Shown: positions 25,628 to 46,018 of the stretch, in pieces
How positions within the stretch are numbered: the stretch's first letter is position 1
How the letters are laid out: the number at the start of each line of letters is the position of its first letter
Assembly: GCA_021108415.1 (NCBI GenBank)
Contig: JAIOQX010000003.1
Span: 310,001-374,000 of the forward strand
Direction: 5' to 3'
DNA: 64,000 bases
Source of the DNA: Acholeplasmataceae bacterium
GTDB taxonomy: Bacteria > Bacillota_I > Bacilli_A > Acholeplasmatales > Acholeplasmataceae
The notes under the pieces: generated by a model
Told to the model about the DNA's origin: nothing
The model's input: the letters and a program-made list of their open reading frames with translations, nothing else
Databases searched by the model: none
Made by a program: the position numbers and the translations under genes

Positions 25628-27061
25628 TTATATTTTAACGCTTTTCATGTACATTGCTGTCAATCTCTTTCTTAGATAATGATTTGATAGTGAAAGCGGA
25701 AAAACAACTACTGTAGGTGACATAGCACTAATCCAGCTTTTTAAAGTGCTAATACTCATTGTTGTAAAAGATATAAACTTTCTGTTTTGCATTATGATTA
25801 ACATAAGATTTTGCATTTGCAATTTAGTTATCATTGAATGTTTAAATAGATAGTAGATATTGTTTTTTAGATATCGATGTAATTCTAAAATTTGATTTTG
25901 ATTTTGTATATACTGATAATTACTATTTATTCCTATTATACTTTTAGTATAATCATTTTTCTTTGCTGGTAAAACATATGTGGAAGTTAAAAATCTTAAC
26001 CTCTCGCGTAACAAGTAATATGCAAAATCATTTCTCTTAGGATTTAAACTCCGATGCTTTTTAAACTCGCTAAATAATTTATAAGCTCTTGTTTTATATT
26101 TATAAATTTTTGTTTGTGGAATATCAATATGAAAAGAACAAATGTTTTTAGCTTTATTTAAATTCCAATTAAATCTATATCCTAAATATGAAAAATCAAT
26201 ATATGTTTTCTTAATTTTATGTATTGCACCCTTTTTTGATAGACTGTATAATTTTAGGTAGTCTATGTACTCTGTATAAGTTGCAATTGATGAAGTTTCA
26301 GTAATTTTCTTATAATGTTTATTCATATATATACTTACTATTTTTGTTTTTTGATCATTAAGTGATAATTGGTAACTTTCAATTGTATCCTTAACTCTTG
26401 CATAAAACTCTTTTACTTCATCATCATGAAAGTTTCGATTAAATACTAGCAAAATATCATCAACATATCGCTCAGAAAAAATAAGTGAGTTATCAATTGT
26501 TTTTAGAGTTTTGTCTAAACTACTAAAAAATACTTCTGATAATACATTACTTAGTTCAGTACCTTGATGAACACCAACTTTAGAACTTGGATTTGAGTCT
26601 AAATAATGAATGATGAGGTTAATATCATTAGTATTTAATATTCTATTCTTTCTAATTATCTCAACCAATTTATCGTGTGGTATGCTATCGAAAAATTTGC
26701 TAATATCGAGTTTCATTATGGTAATTCTATTATTACTTGTAAATATATTGCTCAACACTATTATATTGGAATTTCTACTTGAGTTTCTTATTGAGAAAAA
26801 CAAACTTAGTTTTTTAGAAATTGAGTGAATTAAAACTTTATTTTTTTGTGTAGTTTTATAAACTGTACGTTTAGAATTTAACTTCATTTTGCTTAGTGGT
26901 TCAAAAACTTGAATAGATTTGTTATATTTATAAAGAACATTAGAAAACCAAGTTTCAAGATCCACATTATTCGCAAACCCTAAAGATTTTAGATCTATGT
27001 TATCCATTGGAGATAGATCTGCAGCACTTTCTTTTAGACTATAATGTGAAAGTAGTGACAT
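25628..27061 (-). CDS. drt3a: Antiphage reverse transcriptase, DRT type 3 subunit A (Drt3a-like)
   Basis: A 477-aa reverse transcriptase of the unknown-group defence type. Palm motifs are in order: IMKLDISKFFDSIPHDKL (motif A, catalytic Asp), VGVHQGTELSNVLSEVFFSSLD (motif B), FSERYVDDILLVF (motif C, YVDD) and YQLSLNDQKTKI (motif D), then FSYLGYRF. No maturase, HNH or integrase domain follows; the C-terminal 180 residues are helical and basic. The partner RT is divergent, and a structured element lies 27 bases upstream on the same strand. GAGG lies eight bases before the ATG. The two-RT layout is that of DRT3 (UG3 plus UG8). Subtype is by motif and context recognition, not by search. Confidence 0.75.
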   Translation of the reverse strand: MSLLSHYSLKESAADLSPMDNIDLKSLGFANNVDLETWFSNVLYKYNKSIQVFEPLSKMKLNSKRTVYKTTQKNKVLIHSISKKLSLFFSIRNSSRNSNIIVLSNIFTSNNRITIMKLDISKFFDSIPHDKLVEIIRKNRILNTNDINLIIHYLDSNPSSKVGVHQGTELSNVLSEVFFSSLDKTLKTIDNSLIFSERYVDDILLVFNRNFHDDEVKEFYARVKDTIESYQLSLNDQKTKIVSIYMNKHYKKITETSSIATYTEYIDYLKLYSLSKKGAIHKIKKTYIDFSYLGYRFNWNLNKAKNICSFHIDIPQTKIYKYKTRAYKLFSEFKKHRSLNPKRNDFAYYLLRERLRFLTSTYVLPAKKNDYTKSIIGINSNYQYIQNQNQILELHRYLKNNIYYLFKHSMITKLQMQNLMLIIMQNRKFISFTTMSISTLKSWISAMSPTVVVFPLSLSNHYLRKRLTAMYMKSVKI

Positions 27062-27087
27062 AATTATAACCTCGTTTCTAAAGAATA

Positions 27088-27201
27088 AGGAGCTTAAGTG
27101 TGTGTATTTAGCAAATGAATTTGCAAAATATCTTTCCCAATTTACTTAAAGAATTAAGTGTTAAACTAAACTCGTAAAAATTGGGCGTTGTATAAGCTCC
27201 T
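27088..27201 (-). ncRNA. Probable DRT3 template ncRNA
   Basis: This 114-nt element lies between the divergent RT genes. Read on the minus strand, AGGAGCTTA at the 5' end pairs perfectly with TAAGCTCCT at the 3' end (P1, 9 bp). Inside, CCCAATTT pairs with AAATTGGG, enclosing ACTTAA/TTAAGT with a TTCT loop. GCAAAT/ATTTGC then forms a further small hairpin. One base before the P1 3' strand is ACACACAC, apparently unpaired. A -35 TTGTAA, 17-base spacer and -10 TATAAT place transcription start at about the first base of P1. I infer an RNA whose AC repeat is the template for one of the reverse transcriptases. It may be processed from a longer transcript running into drt3a. Confidence 0.72.
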
Positions 27202-27216
27202 CATTTCAATTATAAT
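27188..27216 (+). promoter_or_regulatory. Promoter of drt3b
   Basis: -35 TTGTAT, 17-base spacer, -10 TATAAT, with start expected near 27223. It overlaps the oppositely directed ncRNA promoter and the 5' end of the ncRNA. Confidence 0.6.
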
Positions 27217-27237
27217 ATAATGTGTATACTATTACAA
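27209..27237 (-). promoter_or_regulatory. Promoter of the DRT3 ncRNA and drt3a
   Basis: Minus-strand -35 TTGTAA, exactly 17 bases, -10 TATAAT, then seven bases to AGGAGC, the start of the closing stem. Confidence 0.7.
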
Positions 27238-27252
27238 TGGAAGGTGAAAAAA

Positions 27253-29253
27253 ATGCTAAATAATACTTCAAGATTCCTTTTAACAGATGTATTACCTTAT
27301 GAGATTCCGGTCATATTCACAAATAAAAACTTTGTCTACTATATTTCTAAAAATTACAGAAATACCAAATTTTATGATTTTGAAAAAGCATTAAAAAAAC
27401 ACTCAGTTCCATTCAAATTCAAAATCATTAAAGACTCAAATGTAAATCGAACAATAAGTTTGATGAACCCTATTGCTCAATTACAGTCTCTCTATTTTAT
27501 TGAAAAATATCAATATGATATATTGCAGTATGTAAATATTTATGGGTTGAATTCATTAAGGAAGCCTTCTGATGTTAGTCCTATTTATTTGAGTGATAAA
27601 TTAAAAAAAAAGATATTCAATAAAATAATAACTAATGCAGAATCACTAAATATAGATAACTTACTTGAGGATATTGAGATATCACCTTTTTTCGAAAGTT
27701 ATTTTTCTAATACACCGTATTCAAGAATCCATGAATTTCAAGATGATGGAGAAATAATAAAACTCGAGAGACGTTTTAAGTATTTATTGAAAACTGATTT
27801 ACAAGATTGCTTTAATTCAATCTATACACATTCAGTTTCATGGTCCTACACTGGTGATAAAGATATAGCAAAAGAAAAAACATCTCATAATTCATTTGAT
27901 AAGATGTTTGATACATTAATGCAAAAATCAAATTATAAAGAAACGAATGGTATTTTAATCGGATCAAATTTATCTCGTATTTTTGCGGAAATTATATTTT
28001 GTAAAATTGATTATTCTATTATCAAGGAGTTGAAGAATGAGAATTTAAAGGAAAACAAAGATTTTAAATATTACCGATACATTGATGATATTTTTGTTTT
28101 TTCTAATGATCGGACAGAATTAGAACTAATAAGAAAATGTATCGAGAGGAACTTCGAGTCATTCAATTTAAGGATCAATATGAGTAAAACATATATTGAT
28201 CAAAGACCATTCAGTTTTAACCGTAACTGGTACTTTGAGTCAAAAGAAATTATTAGTTCTCTGGAATCGTTTAATACGAATGAAAGACTAACCCTAGATT
28301 CTTTAATTGAAGGAAAAGATGAATTAAAAAACATTTTTGTAATAGACTATAAACTTATGTTTCTTATGATAAAAGGAATTATAAAAAAATATCCATCTAG
28401 TGAAATACGAATTGGGAATTATTTATCATCTTCATTGATTGGGGTGTCTTTCACAATGATGAATCACATTTCAAAATTAGATGAAAGTAAAAAGAGTAAT
28501 TACTTAAAGCAAAAACATATAGAATCATTCTTTAATAACTTGATGAATATGATTGTATATATAACAGCTATTAATTTGAGCTATTCTTCAGTTAATAATT
28601 TGTTTCAATTTATATCATTAATGAAGATAAATTATGTTGATATCTTCGATAATTCTAGAGTAAAAAATAATTACCATTTTATTATTAATGATATTGAAAA
28701 TATAATAGAATCAAACTTTGGAAAAACTGAAGTATCGAATTTAATAATACTATTAAGTTTAATTCAAGAAGAAATAAATATTAACTCATTAAAACATTTT
28801 TTTAAGTGTTTTAATGAAACAGAAGATTACGATATATTTATTTTTATTGCATTAGCATTTTATGTTAAGAATAACATTTCCAATCTAGAAACTAAAAACG
28901 AATTCATTGATTTAATAAATAAGATTGTGAACAAAAGAATAGATAGTTTTATAAATTCTTCATATTTCTCTAATACTTCAAAAACAAATGTGAATGATTT
29001 TAGTGATAAAGCTATTAGATCAAACCAATATTATTTTCTTAATGCATTTTACCATTATCCATTAACGAGTTTAGAAAATAAAAAAAATATTGAGAAACTA
29101 ATATATAATCCTAAGTATAAATCATCTGATAAAATTATGATCTTAATGAGTGGATTTAAAGGTTCATTTATTGATTGGGATCAAAAATTAGAAGATTCAT
29201 TAAAAATACTATTATTAAATAAAAAAATTTCAACTCAAAACTCTGATATTTAA
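27253..29253 (+). CDS. drt3b: Antiphage reverse transcriptase, DRT type 3 subunit B (Drt3b-like)
   Basis: A 666-aa protein if it starts at MLNNTSRFLLTDVLPYEIP (27253), preceded by GGAAGGTG; the track's 11 extra residues lack a ribosome site. The N-terminal LTDVLPYEIPVIFTNKNFVYYISKN is typical of large abortive-type RTs. Palm motifs: LLKTDLQDCFNSIYTHSVSW (motif A, catalytic Asp), GILIGSNLSRIFAEIIFCKID (motif B) and FKYYRYIDDIFVFSNDRTEL (motif C, YIDD). About 330 residues of alpha-helical sequence without recognisable domains follow, reminiscent of the helical C-termini of AbiA/AbiK-like RTs. It is divergent from drt3a. Assignment to the UG8/Drt3b class is by recognition and architecture. Confidence 0.75.
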   Translation: MLNNTSRFLLTDVLPYEIPVIFTNKNFVYYISKNYRNTKFYDFEKALKKHSVPFKFKIIKDSNVNRTISLMNPIAQLQSLYFIEKYQYDILQYVNIYGLNSLRKPSDVSPIYLSDKLKKKIFNKIITNAESLNIDNLLEDIEISPFFESYFSNTPYSRIHEFQDDGEIIKLERRFKYLLKTDLQDCFNSIYTHSVSWSYTGDKDIAKEKTSHNSFDKMFDTLMQKSNYKETNGILIGSNLSRIFAEIIFCKIDYSIIKELKNENLKENKDFKYYRYIDDIFVFSNDRTELELIRKCIERNFESFNLRINMSKTYIDQRPFSFNRNWYFESKEIISSLESFNTNERLTLDSLIEGKDELKNIFVIDYKLMFLMIKGIIKKYPSSEIRIGNYLSSSLIGVSFTMMNHISKLDESKKSNYLKQKHIESFFNNLMNMIVYITAINLSYSSVNNLFQFISLMKINYVDIFDNSRVKNNYHFIINDIENIIESNFGKTEVSNLIILLSLIQEEININSLKHFFKCFNETEDYDIFIFIALAFYVKNNISNLETKNEFIDLINKIVNKRIDSFINSSYFSNTSKTNVNDFSDKAIRSNQYYFLNAFYHYPLTSLENKKNIEKLIYNPKYKSSDKIMILMSGFKGSFIDWDQKLEDSLKILLLNKKISTQNSDI

Positions 29254-29344: not shown

Positions 29345-30904
29345 TTAATGGTTTTCATGACAATGTGGACATATAATATCCCCATTATGATCAATCTTAG
29401 TTATATTTCTATAATACATCAATGATTCCACTTGTTTTTCGTAATACCAATATTCATCATGTTTGAAATCAGATTTCTTAATTACATATTTCTTTAAATG
29501 TGCATTATCGGTATAGAAGAAGTGTTTACCAGTGGTTTTGCAAACATCTCCTTTAATCTGAGTCATACAATCACTACATTGATAAAAATCCTTATAAGGA
29601 TCTTTAACTAACTTACCACCACAAAAGGGACATACGTCTCTTTTTTTGTCTGAATAGATCATACCTCTTAAGACGATTTGTTGAATTCGTCTAAACGAGT
29701 CAATATCTCTCATAGAGATATAGACATCATCTCTTTTTAAATAATCATCATCAAATTGATTAACAACTATAATTTCACTGACACCATAGAGTTTTTTATA
29801 TCCTGATAATACTTTGTTATCATAGGTACTATTGACTAACATGATTTTATAAGTCTTATCTTTTGTAAAGTATAATAAAATCTCTTTTTTATTGTTATTA
29901 AAGATATCTAAAGTCCAATCTTTAAACGTAAAAGTCACTCCAAGAGAGTTTAAATCTATTTTGTATTGTGGATCAATTTCAAAATTAAAATGGCCTACCG
30001 CAAATATAACAAGCATCTGCACATACATTAAGTAGTTTTGTTTCATCAATTCAATATCGATTAAAGGTTTATCCTCATCAACAGTAATCTGATGTGTTTG
30101 AATATACTTATAAGTCTTATAAATCTTGCGATAATCTTTTTGCATCAAAAAGATATTCGTCTTTTTAAGTTTTAGCTTTCTATTTCTATTTAAGTTTTTT
30201 TGATAGATCGGTTTGTTTAATCTTGGATTGATGGTTCTACTGATAAAAGTTAATTCTTTTAAAAGCTCTTTTGACAAATTAAAATATTGGCTTAAATCTC
30301 TGATATAGCCTGTATGAAGCTTTCCAAGCGCTAGAAAGTAATTAACATGGTTTACTTTTTCAAGCAAATTAAATCTCATGATATTACTTGCATATAACAA
30401 AGAATTAAGGGTGCGTCTATTTTGTTTAATCATAGATAAGACATCATCAATAAAATTACAAAAGATGATGTTTTCATAAATAGAAGAATCATCTTCATAA
30501 GTTCTTGTTAGAAGCTTTCTTGGTTTTACACCTTTTCTTGTGATGTTTGTTACATTTTGGCTATGATTTGCAAGATGAAGTAATGTATTATGGTTGATAA
30601 TGCGTGCATTTTCAACCGGTAAGACATCATCAGTATCTTTTAAGACAATAATTGGTTTGTTAAATATTCTTTTGATTGCTGGTGTTGATTTTTTGATCTC
30701 TTTGATCAAAAGATCTAGTGTTGTAAAATCAAAGTCTGGTTCAATAGAAAACAACGTCATATCGTGTACGACGTAGTAATCAAATTCTATATATGAAATC
30801 ACTTGATGTTTTTTAACAAAGTTTTGTATACTTTCAAATAGAGATGCAAATCTGTTATATTCAGCAATCGTTAATTCATCAAAATCTTTTCTAATCTTAT
30901 TCAT
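29345..30904 (-). CDS. McrC-like DUF2357-type protein with C-terminal zinc ribbons
   Basis: A 519-aa protein encoded directly after a McrB-like ATPase (8-base overlap), the position of McrC. The RKLLTRTYEDDSSIYENIIFCNFIDDVL segment (about 130-157) matches the YxTxENRFVK region of DUF2357/McrC-like proteins. A basic helical region follows (LNRNRKLKLKKTNIFLMQKDYRKIYKTYKYI). The part corresponding to the nuclease (DWTLDIFNNNKKEILLYFTKDKTYKIMLV) shows no clear PD-(D/E)xK triad. The C-terminus has CPFCGGKL with CSDC spaced for a zinc ribbon, and a final CPHCHENH. Possible roles are nucleic-acid binding or an unusual effector; the function is not established. Confidence 0.6.
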   Translation of the reverse strand: MNKIRKDFDELTIAEYNRFASLFESIQNFVKKHQVISYIEFDYYVVHDMTLFSIEPDFDFTTLDLLIKEIKKSTPAIKRIFNKPIIVLKDTDDVLPVENARIINHNTLLHLANHSQNVTNITRKGVKPRKLLTRTYEDDSSIYENIIFCNFIDDVLSMIKQNRRTLNSLLYASNIMRFNLLEKVNHVNYFLALGKLHTGYIRDLSQYFNLSKELLKELTFISRTINPRLNKPIYQKNLNRNRKLKLKKTNIFLMQKDYRKIYKTYKYIQTHQITVDEDKPLIDIELMKQNYLMYVQMLVIFAVGHFNFEIDPQYKIDLNSLGVTFTFKDWTLDIFNNNKKEILLYFTKDKTYKIMLVNSTYDNKVLSGYKKLYGVSEIIVVNQFDDDYLKRDDVYISMRDIDSFRRIQQIVLRGMIYSDKKRDVCPFCGGKLVKDPYKDFYQCSDCMTQIKGDVCKTTGKHFFYTDNAHLKKYVIKKSDFKHDEYWYYEKQVESLMYYRNITKIDHNGDIICPHCHENH

Positions 30905-33566
30905 TATCTAATTGTTTAATAAATGAAGCACATAGATCTAAATGAAGCGCTTCAAAATCAAATATAAGTTTTTCAATGTCATCGATGGTCTTTAATTCTA
31001 GTTTTGCGACGACTTTAGATAATAAGATTTTTTCGATTGCTTCATTTTCTACATCTTCTTCAGGAAAACATGCTTTATATAAATTAACGAAATCTTCGAT
31101 TTGTTTTAAGATACGATTCCCAAATGAAATATTATAAGGCGCAAGTAAAACTTCAACTTGTTTGATGATCTCATTGTTTTCAGCATCGAAATCTCCAGTT
31201 TTCTTTGCGTCTTCAAATAATTTATTTATGGTTTGATAATCATAGTATTTAGGCATTAAAGGTGAAGAGAAGTTTCGAACCTTAGGTGCTCTTTTGGTAA
31301 AGTTAATGGTATGTGCTCTATCATAGACCTTATCAGAGATCACAAATGTTGATTCATCACGATTAGCTGTACCAATAAACCAAATGTTAGGTGCAACTTT
31401 TAATGTATGTCCATGTTCTAGTGCTAGATAGTCTTGGTTATCTTCATCCTTTTTATGTAGATTAATATTAATCAATTTAATTTCTCTTTGATTCTCTTCA
31501 TTTTCCATCAAGGATAGAAAATCAGAGAAGTAGTATTCTATTCTTGATAGATTCATTTCATCTAACAAAATAAAAGTAAATATATCAGGGTTTAATGCCG
31601 CTTTATATAATGCAAGCGTAAACTTTTTTGGTGTATATTTCATTGAAAACTCATTGTAATAACCTAAAAGTTCATTCTTATCTTTCCATGATGACTCAAC
31701 TTCTATGATTTCACAATTTCCTAAAATAGCTTCAGAGAAGATTTTAGGAAGACTAGTTTTACCTGTCCCACTCATACCTTGTAAGATTGAAAGCTTACTT
31801 GCACCAAGACCTGCAACAAACGTTGCGATATCTTGTGGTGTATAAGATAAGTGAAGTCTTGAGTTTTTAGCATATGAAACAATAAAGTGAATGAGTTCAT
31901 TTAACGAGGTTTCTTTGACTTTTGATACTTTTCTTAATTTTAAATCTTGCGCATACTGATCAATTTTAGAATCAATTTCACTAAATGATGGACATGGATC
32001 AAATACTATTTCATCTTCTGTGATTTGATTTGAGTTTGTCTGTGTATCACCTACTGCAAGACCAGATGCATCAGATGCTAACAAATTCTCGTTTTCAAAG
32101 GATTTTCTAATAAACATGACAATCAGAATCCCTAAAGATACTAAAAGTGCATAAATGGCATCAGTACCAATGATATAATCAAAGATTAAAGTATCTGGTA
32201 TATCAACTTGATAATAGTTAAAGATATCAACGATTGCGATTTGATTGATTTCATTTGCGATTTGGAAGTAGTATCCTGACACACCAATGATAAACACAAA
32301 AAATATATTGACAATCGTTGTTAGTTTAACAATTGATTTAAAATGGCTATCCTTAGAAAGATATGATGCAAGTGTAATGACAAAACATAGTCCAATAGAG
32401 ATTAACATTGCGACCAATAAAAATGCTCCCAATGAATAACTTGGATCAAGACTTGCATAATCTCTTAAGATATTAAATCCTGTTAGATTGACAAAATCTT
32501 CATATGTACCAGCAGTAACAGTTATTTTAATGATTGGAAGAAATAGCATTAAGACGGTTACTGCAGTTAATAAAACAATATATAATAAAGGCTCAACTCG
32601 AGGATATTTAAGTGTAGATTCTTTATATGTTTCTTGATTATAAGCACTATATTTACCTTTAATGATGGAATAGATGATATAAATTACTGCCATTAGGATT
32701 AATGGAATAAAAGCTATAGTCGATGAGACATCCCCTAATGTATAGTTATAATATATATCTATCGTTAATCCAGTTAAGAAAAACAGGATCGTTGTGATAA
32801 ACACAAAGGTAATGAGTGATTTTGATTTTTGGATAAACTTTTCTTTATCATAAAAGTAAATGGATAAAGCATTTGCCATATATAAAAAGATAGATAAGAA
32901 GATTGAAAAGTTTACGATAAAATAAATAATGGTAATTAAATTTGTATCACCAGAGAATAAGACACGAACTAAAGATGCATGATATGTATCACCTGATTCT
33001 AATAGAGAATAAAGTGGAATTAAAAACGTTGTTAGAAAAACCAATATAGCTGCAGCATCAATAAACAAGATATTTAAAGGAAATTTAGTATTTGATAAGC
33101 TTTTTTCATTTGGATTTGTTTTTAGATTTTTGGATTTATCAAGTACTTTGTTTCTAAAGATAAGAAACACAAATGTAGAAATTGTTAATAAGATATTAAA
33201 TATAATTAAAATCATTGTAAAAATTGTAAAAACAGATTCATAGGATTGAAAAACAATTAAGCCGACACTAAAACCTAAGAATGAAACAAAGGAAGCCATA
33301 TATCCCCATGTATGTTTCTTAAAGAAACTATAGACTGATAAGAGTAGTGGAAGAATTGATATAAAAAATAAAATCATAAAGATTAGGGCAAAGTTATTTG
33401 CACTATCACCTGATGATACATTAAAAGATAGGGACCATAAATTATCTACTTCATATGGCACTTTTAGTTTGAGTGACATAATCCATAGATTAATTAAAAA
33501 GATAATCAGATTAACTCCAAGAATTAATGTTCCAAGAAACCAGGCCTTATTAAATAAATTTTTCAT
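30897..33566 (-). CDS. Membrane-embedded McrB-like AAA+ ATPase
   Basis: An 889-aa protein. The first roughly 500 residues contain about 12 predicted membrane helices (for example FLGTLILGVNLIIFLINLWI and YALLVSLGILIVMFI). After a linker comes a cytoplasmic AAA+ domain with Walker A LQGMSGTGKTSL (about 595), the McrB-like ESSWKDKNELLGYYN, Walker B FILLDEMNLSR and sensor-1 IWFIGTANRDEST. Classical McrB is soluble with an N-terminal DNA-reader domain; here membrane helices take that place. AAAGGGG precedes the ATG and a TATAAT promoter lies upstream. It forms a two-gene operon with the DUF2357-type gene. Defence is a plausible role but is inferred from family and neighbourhood. Confidence 0.7.
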   Translation of the reverse strand: MKNLFNKAWFLGTLILGVNLIIFLINLWIMSLKLKVPYEVDNLWSLSFNVSSGDSANNFALIFMILFFISILPLLLSVYSFFKKHTWGYMASFVSFLGFSVGLIVFQSYESVFTIFTMILIIFNILLTISTFVFLIFRNKVLDKSKNLKTNPNEKSLSNTKFPLNILFIDAAAILVFLTTFLIPLYSLLESGDTYHASLVRVLFSGDTNLITIIYFIVNFSIFLSIFLYMANALSIYFYDKEKFIQKSKSLITFVFITTILFFLTGLTIDIYYNYTLGDVSSTIAFIPLILMAVIYIIYSIIKGKYSAYNQETYKESTLKYPRVEPLLYIVLLTAVTVLMLFLPIIKITVTAGTYEDFVNLTGFNILRDYASLDPSYSLGAFLLVAMLISIGLCFVITLASYLSKDSHFKSIVKLTTIVNIFFVFIIGVSGYYFQIANEINQIAIVDIFNYYQVDIPDTLIFDYIIGTDAIYALLVSLGILIVMFIRKSFENENLLASDASGLAVGDTQTNSNQITEDEIVFDPCPSFSEIDSKIDQYAQDLKLRKVSKVKETSLNELIHFIVSYAKNSRLHLSYTPQDIATFVAGLGASKLSILQGMSGTGKTSLPKIFSEAILGNCEIIEVESSWKDKNELLGYYNEFSMKYTPKKFTLALYKAALNPDIFTFILLDEMNLSRIEYYFSDFLSLMENEENQREIKLININLHKKDEDNQDYLALEHGHTLKVAPNIWFIGTANRDESTFVISDKVYDRAHTINFTKRAPKVRNFSSPLMPKYYDYQTINKLFEDAKKTGDFDAENNEIIKQVEVLLAPYNISFGNRILKQIEDFVNLYKACFPEEDVENEAIEKILLSKVVAKLELKTIDDIEKLIFDFEALHLDLCASFIKQLDNE

Positions 33567-33639
33567 AAACTAAAATCCCCTTTATAATGGTTTGAACTAG
33601 ATGTTTAATCTTATCTTTGATATATAAATACTTATTCAT

Positions 33640-37360: not shown

Positions 37361-37400
37361 TATTATATAAAATATATTGCATATAAAAGAAGGTGTTAAC

Positions 37401-38027
37401 ATGTATGCACAAGAACTCAATAATTTGTTTGAAGAACGAGAACCAATCTTAAGAGATGAACTAAAAAATATATTGCAAATAGAAAATGAAAATTCTTTTA
37501 ATCAAGCCTTATCAAATATGGTTCTTTTTGGACTTATCAAAAGGGTGGAGAATGGGATCTACTATATTCAAAGTTCTAATAAGAAATTTAAAAACCTTAA
37601 ACCTTCACTAAATGATATTATCTATAAGAAATATCTTAAAGATAACGCGGGATTCCGCTCAGGGGCTTATTTGTTGTACAAGTATAAATTGACTTCTCAA
37701 GTATCAGAATATTATGAGGTGTTGAGTAATAATGTTTCTTCAAGCACTAGATCAAAAAAAGAATATAATGGAAAAGCAATTATTTCAGCCCCAAAGTTTC
37801 ATATCAATAAGGAAAATATACGATATATGGAATTCTTAGAAATAATGAAACAAATTGATTCAAGTGATTATAATTTTAATGAAAGTATTGAAAAGTTATC
37901 CAATTTATTCCTTGAAATGAAATTAGATAAAGACCTATTAATTATGTATAGTAATTATTATAAGGGAAATCGTTTTATAAATCTTCGCAATAACATTAAA
38001 GGAGTCATTGACTATGAAACTGCATGA
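37401..38027 (+). CDS. AbiEi-like antitoxin/transcriptional regulator (locus 1)
   Basis: A 208-aa protein if it starts at MYAQELNNLFEEREPILRDELKN (37401, with GAAGGTG upstream); the track start is an unsupported TTG. An N-terminal winged helix (about 1-60, ALSNMVLFGLIKRVENGIYYI) is followed by the AbiEi/DUF6088-type domain with IIYKKYLKDNAGFRSGAYLLYKYKLTSQVSEYYEVLSN. Such proteins repress their operon and neutralise the partner nucleotidyltransferase in type IV toxin-antitoxin systems. The toxin gene overlaps its end by 14 bases. Confidence 0.8.
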   Translation: MYAQELNNLFEEREPILRDELKNILQIENENSFNQALSNMVLFGLIKRVENGIYYIQSSNKKFKNLKPSLNDIIYKKYLKDNAGFRSGAYLLYKYKLTSQVSEYYEVLSNNVSSSTRSKKEYNGKAIISAPKFHINKENIRYMEFLEIMKQIDSSDYNFNESIEKLSNLFLEMKLDKDLLIMYSNYYKGNRFINLRNNIKGVIDYETA

Positions 38028-38928
38028 AAACACTGATTTATTTCAAAATTATATTTCATTGGCAAGTCAAGAAGAGGATATTGATGAGGCAATTGTTATC
38101 AAAGACTACTATGTTACACTTGCACTTAAAAAATTATACAGTGTAAATGAACACTTGATTTTTATTGGTGGAACATCATTATCAAAGTGCTTTCAGATCA
38201 TTAATCGGTTTTCAGAAGATATTGATTTGGTAGCAACAGCGAACTCGAGAAAAGCAAAACAAAAACAAACATATGAAGCTATTCAAGAATTAAAAGAAAT
38301 CTGGACTGGAGCAATAGAAGAACAAAATAAACCTTTGTCTGATTTTAAAGAAGTGTATCTTCATTATCCTTCCAAACATGAAACTGAACTGGACCAAAGA
38401 GTGAAGATTGAGCTAATTACTTTTATGGAGCCTTTTCCAATTATTGAAAAAGAAATTGTACCAATAATATATAAATACTTAGATGAATCAGAAATAGAAG
38501 AATTTGAAGTTCATCCAATTACTGTAAAAACACAAGAACCTTACCGGACAATGATGGAGAAAATATTACTAGAAAAGGAATTGTATAAAGAATTTTTTCT
38601 GGAACTACATTCAGATGAATCACAAGAAAAAAGAGCTAGGGATTTTTATGACATTCATAAAATATGGCAGTACTATAAAAAAAGATTACCTATTGATAAT
38701 TTAGAACTTAACAGAATCATTGAATCAAGGATATCGAATAGAAGATCAAGAACAACTATCTCATTGGATGAAATCAATAAATATAGTCTGCTTGAGATGT
38801 TTGAAATGAGAAACATTGAGAAGCAATTAACAGGTGTTGACAAACGGAAACTATCAATCCGTGATTTAAATATTACTCAAATTAAAACATCACTTAAAGA
38901 GATTGATATGTATTTTATTAATTTTTAA
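38014..38928 (+). CDS. AbiEii-like nucleotidyltransferase toxin (locus 1)
   Basis: About 304 aa starting at MKLHENTDLFQNY (38014), nine bases after AAAGGAG. The DNA polymerase-beta-type nucleotidyltransferase motif reads LIFIGGTSLSKCFQIINRFSEDIDLVA, combining the GGTSLSK loop with the catalytic Asp pair in EDIDL. Downstream RARDFYDIHKIWQYYKKR matches the conserved KxRDxYDL region of AbiEii. Known AbiEii-like toxins (MenT) transfer nucleotides to tRNA or other RNA. It overlaps the antitoxin gene, as usual. Confidence 0.85.
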   Translation: MKLHENTDLFQNYISLASQEEDIDEAIVIKDYYVTLALKKLYSVNEHLIFIGGTSLSKCFQIINRFSEDIDLVATANSRKAKQKQTYEAIQELKEIWTGAIEEQNKPLSDFKEVYLHYPSKHETELDQRVKIELITFMEPFPIIEKEIVPIIYKYLDESEIEEFEVHPITVKTQEPYRTMMEKILLEKELYKEFFLELHSDESQEKRARDFYDIHKIWQYYKKRLPIDNLELNRIIESRISNRRSRTTISLDEINKYSLLEMFEMRNIEKQLTGVDKRKLSIRDLNITQIKTSLKEIDMYFINF

Positions 38929-42204: not shown

Positions 42205-42867
42205 GTGAAAGTGAAGAAAATAATAAATCAATTATATGAATACATTGAAAAGAAATATAAATATAGTGAACCGTTTCTTTTGAAAGAATTATATGAAGGT
42301 TTTCCGGATGTTAATCAAGGTACAATTAGAGAATCGGTGAGGAGATTACTTGATCAAGAAAAATTGATTAAATCAAAAAATGGTGTCTATGGATTACCAG
42401 ATCCTAATCGAATATTAAAGACAGCTGTATTGAATTCTGAAGATGCCCTTAATAAAAAGTATATCAAGTCTGAAGATGGTAGTGTCATTGGATATAGAAG
42501 CGGATTCTATATTGCAAACGCATTAAGATTAACGACACAAACATCTAGCGATTTAGTGATATACTCTAATGAGGTATCAAAGAAAAAGAGAACCATAAAA
42601 GTTAAAAACATGAGAGTGATCATTAATCAATCTAGAGTTAGAGTGACCAACAAGAATTACAAGTTGCTTCAAGTTTTAGATTTATTCGTTGATTTTAACA
42701 AATTTAGTGAATACTCATTAAATGATTCAAAAGAGAAGATCAGTCATTATCTATATGAGCTAGACTTATCAAATGAAGAGATTGAACATATTGTAGAGGC
42801 ATATCCAAAAGATGCGCAAATACAGTTTTACAAATTGGGAGGGACTCATGCATTTACACACAAATAA
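42205..42867 (+). CDS. AbiEi-like antitoxin/transcriptional regulator (locus 2)
   Basis: A 220-aa protein with an N-terminal winged helix (EPFLLKELYEGFPDVNQGTIRESVRRLLDQEKLIKSKNGVYGLPD) and an AbiEi-type second domain (YRSGFYIANALRLTTQTSSDLVIYSNEVSKKKRTIKVKNMRVII). GTG start near AGGAGG; a second GTG six bases on is also possible. It differs in sequence from the locus 1 antitoxin, so the two loci are not a recent duplication. Its 3' end overlaps the toxin gene. Confidence 0.82.
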   Translation: MKVKKIINQLYEYIEKKYKYSEPFLLKELYEGFPDVNQGTIRESVRRLLDQEKLIKSKNGVYGLPDPNRILKTAVLNSEDALNKKYIKSEDGSVIGYRSGFYIANALRLTTQTSSDLVIYSNEVSKKKRTIKVKNMRVIINQSRVRVTNKNYKLLQVLDLFVDFNKFSEYSLNDSKEKISHYLYELDLSNEEIEHIVEAYPKDAQIQFYKLGGTHAFTHK

Positions 42868-43801
42868 GAAAGATTTTAAAGAACTTATCATTGCGACTGC
42901 ATCACATACACCAGGACTTCAAAATCATCAAGTAGAAAAAGATTATTATGTTTCATTGTTCCTTAAAGAATTATCTAAGATTGATAATAATGTAGAAATT
43001 GTATTTAAAGGAGGAACATCTCTATCGAAATGCTATGATGTGATAGATCGGTTTTCAGAAGATATAGATTTAACGATTAAGTTTCCTAATGTGAAAGCTG
43101 GTCGAGGCTTACGAAAAAGATTGAAAGAAAATATAATCGCTACGATTGATAAACTTGGAATGAAATTTCTTAATCCTGATGAGGTTCAATCGGATAGAGA
43201 TTTTAATCATTATGACATCGAATTTGAAAGATTGTTTGAATCTACCCCTGAGATGATTCCGCATATTAAGATTGAGACAATTGTGGTTTATAAGCCTTAT
43301 CCTTGTTTGAAGAAGGATGTGAGTAACTATATAACAAAATATCTATCTAAACTAGAAGAAGGACCAGATTTAATCGATAGATATGATTTAGAGACATTTG
43401 AAATGAGCATTCAATCCATCAACCGTACGTTTATAGATAAACTGTTTGCTTTATGTGATTATCATTTAGAAAAAACTTATGATCGTTATTCAAGACATAT
43501 TTATGATATTCACATGATTTGTAATAGTGAGTTTTTAGATAAGAAAGTGGTTACTGATATCACTGATGATGTCATATCTGACAGACAACGACTATCGGTT
43601 CGTAATCCATCAGCAAAACCCGGATCTAAACCTAAAGAGATATTAAAAGAAATCATTGATAAAAAAGTATTTGAATCAGATTATAATGAAATTACTTCAG
43701 GATTCATATATAAAAAAGTGAGTTATGAGACATGTATTGATTCCCTGAAGGCTGTCTTGGAATACAAACTAGTTCCTGAAGTGATAAAAGAATATGAATG
43801 A
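42848..43801 (+). CDS. AbiEii-like nucleotidyltransferase toxin (locus 2)
   Basis: About 317 aa starting at MHLHTNKKDFKELI (42848), preceded by GGGAGGGACTC; the longer track start is less well supported. The nucleotidyltransferase motif is VEIVFKGGTSLSKCYDVIDRFSEDIDLTI, and DRYSRHIYDIHMI matches the later conserved region. It probably modifies RNA in the manner of AbiEii/MenT toxins. The gene overlaps the antitoxin by 20 bases. A hairpin terminator follows about 160 bases later. Confidence 0.85.
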   Translation: MHLHTNKKDFKELIIATASHTPGLQNHQVEKDYYVSLFLKELSKIDNNVEIVFKGGTSLSKCYDVIDRFSEDIDLTIKFPNVKAGRGLRKRLKENIIATIDKLGMKFLNPDEVQSDRDFNHYDIEFERLFESTPEMIPHIKIETIVVYKPYPCLKKDVSNYITKYLSKLEEGPDLIDRYDLETFEMSIQSINRTFIDKLFALCDYHLEKTYDRYSRHIYDIHMICNSEFLDKKVVTDITDDVISDRQRLSVRNPSAKPGSKPKEILKEIIDKKVFESDYNEITSGFIYKKVSYETCIDSLKAVLEYKLVPEVIKEYE

Positions 43802-44072: not shown

Positions 44073-45014
44073 ATGACAGATCATCCATTAGAAGATTTAG
44101 TCGATCTATATCTAGCAGAAAAAGATATTAAAAGAGAAACATGGGAACTCTATCATACAATATTGATTCAGTATATAGCCTATTTAAAAACTCAAAAAAT
44201 CATATATGCTAAAAAAAGTGATGTATTAAGTTTCATAGATTATAAAAAACGCCAAAATTATTCTACTCAATGGATCTATCATCTTATTAGCACAATCAAA
44301 GGCCTATATCAATATCTAGCGTTTAATCAAAAGCGATTAGATCTTGATGATATATATGCCTATGACATCACAGAGTCTATTAAAAATGTAAGTATCAAAA
44401 AAAAATTTGATAAACAAACATTAGAAATACATGAAGCCAAACATTTAATTTTATGTACTAAACAAATGAGAAAATATATTTGGCATTATAGAGATCATGC
44501 AATCATTTATTTAATGATTGTGACAGGTATCAGATCAGTTGAGGTTAGACGTGCAAGAATCAAAGATTTAAAAAAGATAAATAGTCAGCATGTTTTATAC
44601 ATTCAAGGTAAAGGTATGTCATCAAAAGATGATTATGTTAAAATCTCAAAAGGTCTAAAAGATGCGATTGATGATTATCTAAATCTCAGAAGTGATAAAA
44701 ATCCATATCTATTTATTTCTCATTCAAAAAGATCTGATGTGCCTTATTTATCTAGGACTTTTTTTAACAGGATGCTTAAAAGGGTTTTAGGTGATTCAGG
44801 CTTTGATCCAAACTATATCACAGCTCATTGTCTAAGACATACCGCAGCTAGCCTAAATCTAAAAAGAGGTGGGAGCTTAGAAGAGACTAAAAGATTTATG
44901 AGGCACAGTAATCTATCAACTACTTTAATTTATTCACATATGGTAAAAACAATAGAAGATGATACAGAAAATCAAGTAGAGCATTATATTTTAAATGATG
45001 ATTCTGATCTGTAA
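44073..45014 (+). CDS. Tyrosine recombinase 1
   Basis: A 313-aa phage-integrase-family recombinase. The N-terminal SAM-like core-binding domain (1-105, LVDLYLAEKDIKRETWELYHTI) is followed by the catalytic domain with TGIRSVEVRRARI (catalytic Arg), QGKGMSSKDDYVKI (Lys), AHCLRHTAASL (HxxR), FMRHSNLSTTLIYSHM (His and nucleophilic Tyr). All catalytic residues are present. GGGAG precedes the ATG. A paralogue follows in tandem and a polysaccharide locus lies immediately beyond, so site-specific inversion or integration are both possible roles. Confidence 0.9.
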   Translation: MTDHPLEDLVDLYLAEKDIKRETWELYHTILIQYIAYLKTQKIIYAKKSDVLSFIDYKKRQNYSTQWIYHLISTIKGLYQYLAFNQKRLDLDDIYAYDITESIKNVSIKKKFDKQTLEIHEAKHLILCTKQMRKYIWHYRDHAIIYLMIVTGIRSVEVRRARIKDLKKINSQHVLYIQGKGMSSKDDYVKISKGLKDAIDDYLNLRSDKNPYLFISHSKRSDVPYLSRTFFNRMLKRVLGDSGFDPNYITAHCLRHTAASLNLKRGGSLEETKRFMRHSNLSTTLIYSHMVKTIEDDTENQVEHYILNDDSDL

Positions 45015-45052
45015 TACAAGCGCTTATGATTAAAAATAAAGGAGAGATCACT

Positions 45053-46018
45053 CTGTCTAAACATGAACTAGAAAAATTAAGTATCGATTATCTCAATCAA
45101 AAAGAAATCTCTAAAGCTACCCTTAAAGCTTATCGATTAGCGTTTAAGTTTTATATAGATTATTTAAAAGAAAATGATATCCTTTATGCGAAAACATCTG
45201 ATGTGATTAAATATAGAGCATATAGAAAAAGTTTAGGACATTCATCAGAATACATCTATATTCATATCACTGCTTTAAAGGGATTATATAAATATTTAAA
45301 AATCAATCAAAGATCTTTAAATCTATCGGTTTTATATCGATATGACATCATGGCTAGTATTAAAAATGAGCGGATCAACTACCATATCAAAAAGCCTATT
45401 TTAACCAAAGAAGATGCTAAGTATTTAATCAATTATACTAAAAATAGACGCATTCATATGTTCGATTATAGAAATCATGCGATCATCTATTTGATGATCA
45501 CAAGTGGTATTAGATCAGTTGAAGCTATATTTGCTATGAGATCAGATTACAAAATCGCAGATGATAGACATATTTTATATATCGAAAAAAATCATAGTTT
45601 TGTTAATTTATCCAAAGGTGCGATCATTGCTTTAAATGAATATCTAGATTTAAGAAAAGATAAGAATCCTTATTTATTTGTATCACACCATAAATTAGAT
45701 GATAACTCTCATCTTTCTGTTCACTATATCAGTCATATGTTTAGAAAACTCATAAAGACTTCTAAACTAAGTCATCTTGGACTTACGCCTCACAGCTTAA
45801 GACATGCTGTTGGAGCATTTAATCTCTTAAGAGGCGCTTCACTTATAGACACTAAAAATTTGTTAAGACATAAAAATATTAAGTCAACTTTGATCTATCA
45901 AGAGCACATTAAAAAGATGAGTGAAAGCGTAGAAGAAAAACTTGAAGCGTTCATCTTAAAAGAAGAACACCTAACTTACTATAATGATTTTATTTCCTAT
46001 CTCGAATCAGAGATTTAA
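45053..46018 (+). CDS. Tyrosine recombinase 2, probable CTG start
   Basis: A second phage-integrase-family recombinase (about 321 aa). Catalytic motifs: SGIRSVEAIFAM (Arg), PHSLRHAVGAF (HxxR), LLRHKNIKSTLIYQEHI (His/Tyr). The track ATG (45026) has no ribosome site. AAAGGAGAG lies inside that stretch, eight bases before CTG TCT AAA (45053). Starting there gives a protein (xSKHELEKLSIDYL) that aligns end to end with MTDHPLEDLVDLYL of recombinase 1. I therefore propose a CTG start. It is paralogous to the upstream gene; the pair may act together. Confidence 0.82.
   Translation: MSKHELEKLSIDYLNQKEISKATLKAYRLAFKFYIDYLKENDILYAKTSDVIKYRAYRKSLGHSSEYIYIHITALKGLYKYLKINQRSLNLSVLYRYDIMASIKNERINYHIKKPILTKEDAKYLINYTKNRRIHMFDYRNHAIIYLMITSGIRSVEAIFAMRSDYKIADDRHILYIEKNHSFVNLSKGAIIALNEYLDLRKDKNPYLFVSHHKLDDNSHLSVHYISHMFRKLIKTSKLSHLGLTPHSLRHAVGAFNLLRGASLIDTKNLLRHKNIKSTLIYQEHIKKMSESVEEKLEAFILKEEHLTYYNDFISYLESEI

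Follow-up and report, generated by a model that had tools for sequence, protein, structure and literature searches.

We describe a membrane-anchored variant of the McrBC gene pair in a 64,000-nucleotide stretch of DNA (the window; positions 310,001 to 374,000 of contig JAIOQX010000003.1, G000:C2:310001-374000 in our collection) from the 1.78 Mb genome of an Acholeplasmataceae bacterium (G000). The first gene encodes an 889-residue McrB-like AAA+ protein of the NxD type with twelve predicted membrane helices, and the second a 519-residue McrC-like partner with a DUF2357 region and zinc-type cysteines. Judged by sequence and phylogeny, the pair falls within the NxD branch of McrB GTPases as a clade of its own, with a membrane domain in place of the coiled coil. 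Both open reading frames (ORFs) lie on the minus strand exactly where the original prediction, made from the letters alone, had placed them; the AAA+ gene comes first and overlaps the partner gene by 8 bp. The AAA+ gene is located immediately upstream of the partner gene in 48 of 50 loci, the remaining two being at a contig edge. The two genes are obligately paired and found together wherever the contig permits. The nearest named relatives of the pair-bearing source, from a scan of species genomes with the partner profile, are metagenome-assembled genomes (MAGs) of Acholeplasmatales. The features of the pair, with AlphaFold2 (AF2) models scored by predicted local distance difference test (pLDDT) and predicted template-modelling score (pTM), are as follows.

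30897..33566, minus strand: membrane McrB-like AAA+ protein, first gene of the pair (ORF of 889 residues; 40 orthologues aligned; AF2 pLDDT 80.3, pTM 0.52)
32097..33566, minus strand: membrane domain, residues 1-490, 12 helices, apparently three tandem 4-helix units (hydropathy, charge, AF2 helices, hhalign)
30900..32009, minus strand: McrB-like AAA+ domain of the NxD clade, residues 520-889 (PADLOC PDC-M26A, Foldseek, tree)
31752..31778, minus strand: Walker A GMSGTGKTS, residues 597-605 (invariant in 40 orthologues)
31551..31574, minus strand: Walker B FILLDEMN, residues 665-672 (DEMN invariant in 40 orthologues)
31356..31364, minus strand: NxD signature N735-R736-D737 within GTANRDES (N735 and D737 invariant in 40 orthologues)
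29345..30904, minus strand: DUF2357/McrC-like partner, second gene (ORF of 519 residues; 46 orthologues; AF2 pLDDT 83.4, pTM 0.76)
30089..30859, minus strand: DUF2357 (McrC N-terminal) region, approximately residues 16-272 (Pfam, BLAST, Foldseek)
29759..30055, minus strand: degenerate PD-(D/E)xK-like region without catalytic triad, residues 284-382 (AF2 element order, alignment columns)
29567..29632, minus strand: zinc ribbon C425-C428/C443-C446 (four cysteines invariant in 46 orthologues)
29348..29542, minus strand: probable second zinc site C455, C512, C515 and H519 (three cysteines invariant, histidine 93%; putative grouping)
33576..33582, minus strand: Shine-Dalgarno-like AGGGGA 5' of the first gene (read from the sequence)

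Architecture of the two proteins

The C-terminal 370 residues of the 889-residue protein belong to the MoxR/McrB class of AAA+ domains according to Foldseek searches with the AF2 model. The McrB-like motifs that had been noticed at first sight proved to be nearly invariant across the 40 orthologues, and the NxD found in place of the NxxD of McrB, usually followed by E or D, is the signature of the NxD branch. The candidate PADLOC model PDC-M26A matches the AAA+ domain at 1.7e-49, and the partner matches no PADLOC model. The same model also matches the ATPases of CoCoPALMs, and we therefore dropped the match as evidence of defence; our literature search found no paper mentioning PDC-M26. In the Pfam profile search, both families score below their cut-offs (AAA_5 at 18.1 bits, under the cut-off of 22 bits; DUF2357 as given below).

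The N-terminal half had been predicted to hold 12 membrane helices instead of a DNA-reading domain, and hydropathy across the orthologues bears this out. Twelve hydropathy peaks fall inside residues 14-486, and the same rule finds 12 helices in 29 of the 40 orthologues, 10-11 in nine, and 8 in two shorter proteins. Because the loops on the side of the N-terminus contain 2, 2, 7, 4, 5 and 2 lysine and arginine residues, against 2, 0, 1, 0, 2 and 0 on the opposite side, both ends of the protein are predicted to be cytosolic. The helices form three groups of four in the AF2 model, which was computed from 40 sequences, and groups two and three have a β-hairpin and a short helix after their first helix. 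Alignment of unit against unit with hhalign is in register, with raw scores of 25.8-30.5 against 14.7-22.1 for column-reversed decoys. The membrane domain is probably, although not provenly, a triplicated 4-helix unit, because the hhalign probabilities are as low as 21.9-42% (58% between units 2 and 3 with longer profiles). The membrane domain drifts among orthologues (18-57% identity), whereas the motor part is better kept (60-80%). No Pfam family covers the membrane domain, for which only chance matches in single members were found. We dismissed its sequence matches in the PDB (Shaker channels and a designed protein) as due to hydrophobic composition, and a single Foldseek match to LetA among the AAA matches of the 889-residue model was not used for identification.

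As for the partner, its assignment as a DUF2357-like protein in the McrC position holds on several lines. The Pfam family DUF2357 reaches 22.7 bits over residues 16-145, 0.6 short of the cut-off of 23.3. BLAST aligns the partner with a DUF2357-zinc protein from L095, a locus with a soluble coiled-coil NxD pair, at 3e-15 over residues 17-334 and at 9e-10 over the zinc part. Foldseek places two McrC-type structures on top, namely YdjA-YdiS (9a5m, 2e-3) and E. coli McrC (6ut6, 0.04), with weak E-values and low TM-scores. With this marginal Pfam and weak Foldseek support, the ATPase has the adjoining DUF2357-containing McrC homologue typical of the NxD branch. Residues 284-382 are modelled in the PD-(D/E)xK-like order α-β-β-β-β-α-β, and the alignment of 46 orthologues has no conserved D...D/ExK columns, in line with the absence of an obvious nuclease triad noted originally. 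The two zinc-ribbon-like cysteine pairs of the original prediction are indeed zinc-type pairs, now refined to seven cysteines invariant in the 46 orthologues together with a C-terminal histidine conserved in 93%, which would form two zinc sites.

Distribution and genomic setting

Scanning 85,462 species genomes with the partner profile, we found at least 50 loci, a lower bound as the search was pattern-limited. They belong to Acholeplasmatales, Izimaplasma, Anaeroplasma, Clostridia and one Erysipelotrichaceae MAG, a scatter over Acholeplasma-like bacteria and some gut Firmicutes. The partner is present, in a single copy each time, in 21 of 395 genomes sampled from the class (17 of the 346 good ones). 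No close relative of the pair was found in the viral contigs or plasmids searched, and the phage collection contained only one distant soluble homologue. A soluble coiled-coil NxD McrB with a DUF2357-zinc partner is encoded on a phage-labelled, unverified human-gut contig (MT835511.1; L095, 683-5228); a search without positive control found no such soluble pair in 245 genomes of the phylum.

The same-genus genomes G000, G001, G003 and G004 cluster together in the rpoB tree. In the partner tree, G001 and G003 join G052 of another genus (0.99), and G004 joins G057 (0.82). When G000 is compared with G004, AbiE and most of the genes flanking the pair share 71-95% identity (one 61%), and the pair only 59-77%. 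The discordant trees and the lower identity of the pair than of its flanks suggest an exchange between species. The AAA+ gene of G004 is interrupted in the assembly (L031, 10723-13385), and the G004 pair adjoins the same oxaloacetate-decarboxylase genes as in the window, in opposite orientation.

DRT3a and DRT3b (25628-29253), which adjoin the pair in the window and are divergently transcribed, are confirmed by PADLOC and represent a divergent DRT3, because they fall below the NCBIfam cut-offs. Further along the window are two different AbiE toxin-antitoxin pairs (37377-38928 and 42205-43801), which share approximately 25-30% identity. Behind them stand two tyrosine-recombinase-like genes in tandem (44073-46018), and the whole forms an island.

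A defence role read from the DRT3 neighbourhood finds no support in the other loci. DRT3 adjoins the pair in G000 and in none of the others, AbiE only in G000 and its sister species G004, and the island setting is confined to these two. In the remaining loci, the genes directly beside the pair are for the most part ordinary chromosomal ones, for example those for prfA, LD-carboxypeptidase, aldo-keto reductase, acetate kinase and lipoproteins; L047, with a Fic protein, and L061, with a GmrSD protein, are isolated exceptions. At a threshold of 1e-15, PADLOC matches have about the same low frequency in the 143 immediate neighbours as in 143 genes that lie five or more genes from the pair; this distal set, taken from the same loci, is no independent genomic control. 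The pair has no conserved third gene at its side across loci, and neither a nuclease nor a HEPN gene was recognised next to it in the loci surveyed.

Within groups of related genomes, the position is kept. In the clostridial loci L076, L078, L082 and L086, prfA lies upstream of the pair, and downstream come very long exported proteins (approximately 3200 residues where complete; no Pfam domain in the one scanned, from L082). In the Anaeroplasma-type loci L071, L073, L074 and L077, the pair stands between an LD-carboxypeptidase gene and two short genes. L027 and L052 share a serine hydrolase and an aldo-keto reductase beside the pair. In L068, the pair is followed by two TasA-like (SipW-type) exported proteins and a second NxD AAA protein. 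We did not accept an apparent enrichment of lipoprotein and secreted genes, which make up 21-26% in the first position and 11-20% at greater distance, considering the small numbers and the relatedness of the genomes. The pair is a chromosomal accessory pair and not universal housekeeping, because its presence is patchy and its position is kept only within groups of related genomes. Of the two findings that would jointly have spoken against the original prediction, the lack of a defence link is seen in most relatives, and a housekeeping position shared by all of them is not, the position being group-specific and the pair patchy.

Possible modes of action

McrBC-type GTPases are known as restriction motors. 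We propose, with about an even chance of being right, that the pair is instead a membrane-tethered NxD GTPase machine for remodelling, which does not cut nucleic acids. The 12-helix domain would anchor the AAA+ GTPase on the inner side of the cytoplasmic membrane, and the AAA+ domains there, by analogy with McrB, may assemble into a ring or hexamer. The DUF2357 finger of the partner would enter this ring and stimulate hydrolysis of GTP (presumably rather than ATP), as McrC does, and the degenerate nuclease fold with the double zinc site would serve as a non-catalytic binding platform. Nucleotide-driven movement could then be passed to the three 4-helix units or to a client in the membrane or envelope, and the output would therefore be remodelling at the membrane instead of DNA restriction. 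The 48 of 50 paired loci, the motor motifs that are nearly invariant next to a drifting membrane domain, the missing triad, the lack of a recognised nuclease or HEPN neighbour, of PADLOC enrichment and of relatives in the viral contigs and plasmids searched, and the group-conserved positions away from defence genes all support this proposal. We also count in its favour that CoCoPALM pairs in the same genomes lie beside SipW-type signal peptidases and TasA-like exported proteins, which is a non-restriction setting, and that exported proteins of this kind and a second NxD AAA protein follow the pair in L068. Several observations weigh against it: the pair sits in an island with AbiE in G000 and one sister species; patchy presence and a partner tree discordant with rpoB are common for defence genes; and the enrichment of secreted neighbours is unconvincing, so that the link to envelope cargo is only indirect.

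The main alternative, itself rather unlikely, is that the pair acts at the membrane in anti-phage defence: a CoCoNuT-like zinc-module sensor would trigger the AAA ring, opening or distorting the 12-helix domain and halting growth as in abortive infection. Homology speaks for it, since the NxD McrBC branch has been predicted to be defensive (PMC11090510), as do the adjoining DRT3 and AbiE in the window, the patchy presence with discordant gene trees, and the divergence of the pair between G000 and G004 beyond that of its mostly 71-95% identical flanks. The PDC-M26A match would also point this way, but does not discriminate, as it extends to CoCoPALM ATPases. The lack of PADLOC enrichment at other loci, the absence of plasmid, prophage or viral relatives in the collections searched, and the non-defence positions conserved within genus-level groups all argue against defence. 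The originally suggested membrane-located defence or stress system stands as a membrane McrBC-like pair, and its defence part finds no support in the context. A related and unlikely idea makes the pair a new class of membrane-embedded McrBC machine: a triplicated 4-helix domain and a zinc platform would have replaced the reading and cutting of nucleic acids, and an immune or stress switch of the McrBC type would use the membrane itself as its effector.

Direct service to the assembly of TasA-like filaments or exported proteins, as a divergent CoCoPALM component, seems improbable. The pair shares with CoCoPALMs the NxD branch, a membrane-anchored ATPase and a DUF2357 partner, SipW-type exported proteins adjoin it in L068, and CoCoPALM clusters co-occur in most pair-bearing relatives. 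However, its ATPase lies in a separate clade, and its partner bears zinc sites and lacks a long coiled coil. Among the listed neighbours of the pair in the other loci no signal peptidase was seen, and in the Anaeroplasma-type genomes that carry the pair no DUF2357 paralogue was detected. Very improbable is a type IV restriction system that would cleave incoming modified DNA at its point of entry. McrBC homology and the PD-(D/E)xK-like element order of the partner model are in its favour, but the D...D/ExK residues are not conserved in the 46 orthologues, the pair has no separate nuclease gene, and it lacks a DNA-reading domain.

If the remodelling proposal is correct, a restriction-type motor has been redeployed at the membrane, and its partner has retained the GTPase-stimulating fold and the zinc module while losing the nuclease residues. 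The pair would offer a two-gene, experimentally tractable case for the function of NxD McrB GTPases.

Comparison with CoCoNuT, CoCoPALM and McrBC systems

The NxD branch of McrB GTPases contains the CoCoNuTs and the CoCoPALMs, and according to the paper that defined it none of its members had been characterised (Bell et al., 2024, PMC11090510). We found no description of a membrane McrB pair in the open-access literature searched, in agreement with the initial impression of a system that is not well described. An earlier notice is possible, because only the open-access subset was searched and because Bell et al. (PMC11090510) announced a later publication on CoCoPALMs and other NxD GTPases. 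In a small, midpoint-rooted tree of NxD ATPases without E. coli McrB as outgroup, the window ATPase falls in a clade of its own (0.98), apart from the CoCoPALM clade (0.996), and the soluble ATPases of L095 and L142 are only weakly placed (0.68-0.86). In L142, on a Rhodoferax plasmid (NZ_CP019242.1), an AAA-domain protein and a hypothetical gene are followed by an NxD McrB and DUF2357, a gene order similar to that of type II CoCoNuTs.

The pair resembles CoCoNuTs (CnuB/CnuC) in its NxD McrB GTPase, in a DUF2357 partner with a PD-(D/E)xK-like region, which is often inactivated in CoCoNuTs, and in the C-terminal CPxC zinc ribbon, a pattern also seen in the soluble pair L095 and the plasmid pairs L144 and L145. 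Unlike CoCoNuTs, it has 12 membrane helices and no coiled coil, and it comprises two genes only, with neither an active McrC nuclease nor an adjoining HEPN or other nuclease.

With CoCoPALMs it has in common the membrane-anchored NxD McrB and the DUF2357 partner, and CoCoPALMs are present both in G000 itself (L044) and in many of its relatives. One cluster of G000 (G000:C2:262774-267634; L044, 14774-19634) encodes a one-helix NxD McrB, a DUF2357-coiled-coil partner and an S26-like peptidase, with TasA-like proteins upstream. A second one-helix NxD McrB (G000:C2:248720-259314; L044, 720-11314) has no adjoining DUF2357 partner and is followed by three small exported proteins and a protein of 2323 residues. 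The remaining DUF2357 loci that we examined in these genomes likewise belong to CoCoPALMs, with SipW-type (S26) signal peptidases and TasA-like exported proteins. The CoCoPALM McrB has a single, FtsB-like helix, as in these paralogues, against 12 in the window, and its partner has a coiled coil and no CxxC. S26 signal peptidases, which adjoin CoCoPALMs, are absent from the listed neighbours of the pair, not all of which were scanned. Because the pair departs from CoCoNuTs in coiled coil and nuclease, and from CoCoPALMs in the single helix and signal peptidase, we regard it as a new NxD McrBC variant.

E. coli McrBC and B. subtilis YdiS-YdjA likewise combine an AAA+ GTPase with a DUF2357 partner, but they have a DNA-reading domain and an active nuclease, with NxxD in the E. 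coli protein, whereas our partner lacks the catalytic PD-(D/E)xK residues of type IV restriction. PDC-M26A, finally, resembles the pair in the AAA+ domain, which it shares with CoCoPALM ATPases, and the zinc-bearing partner fits none of the PADLOC models.

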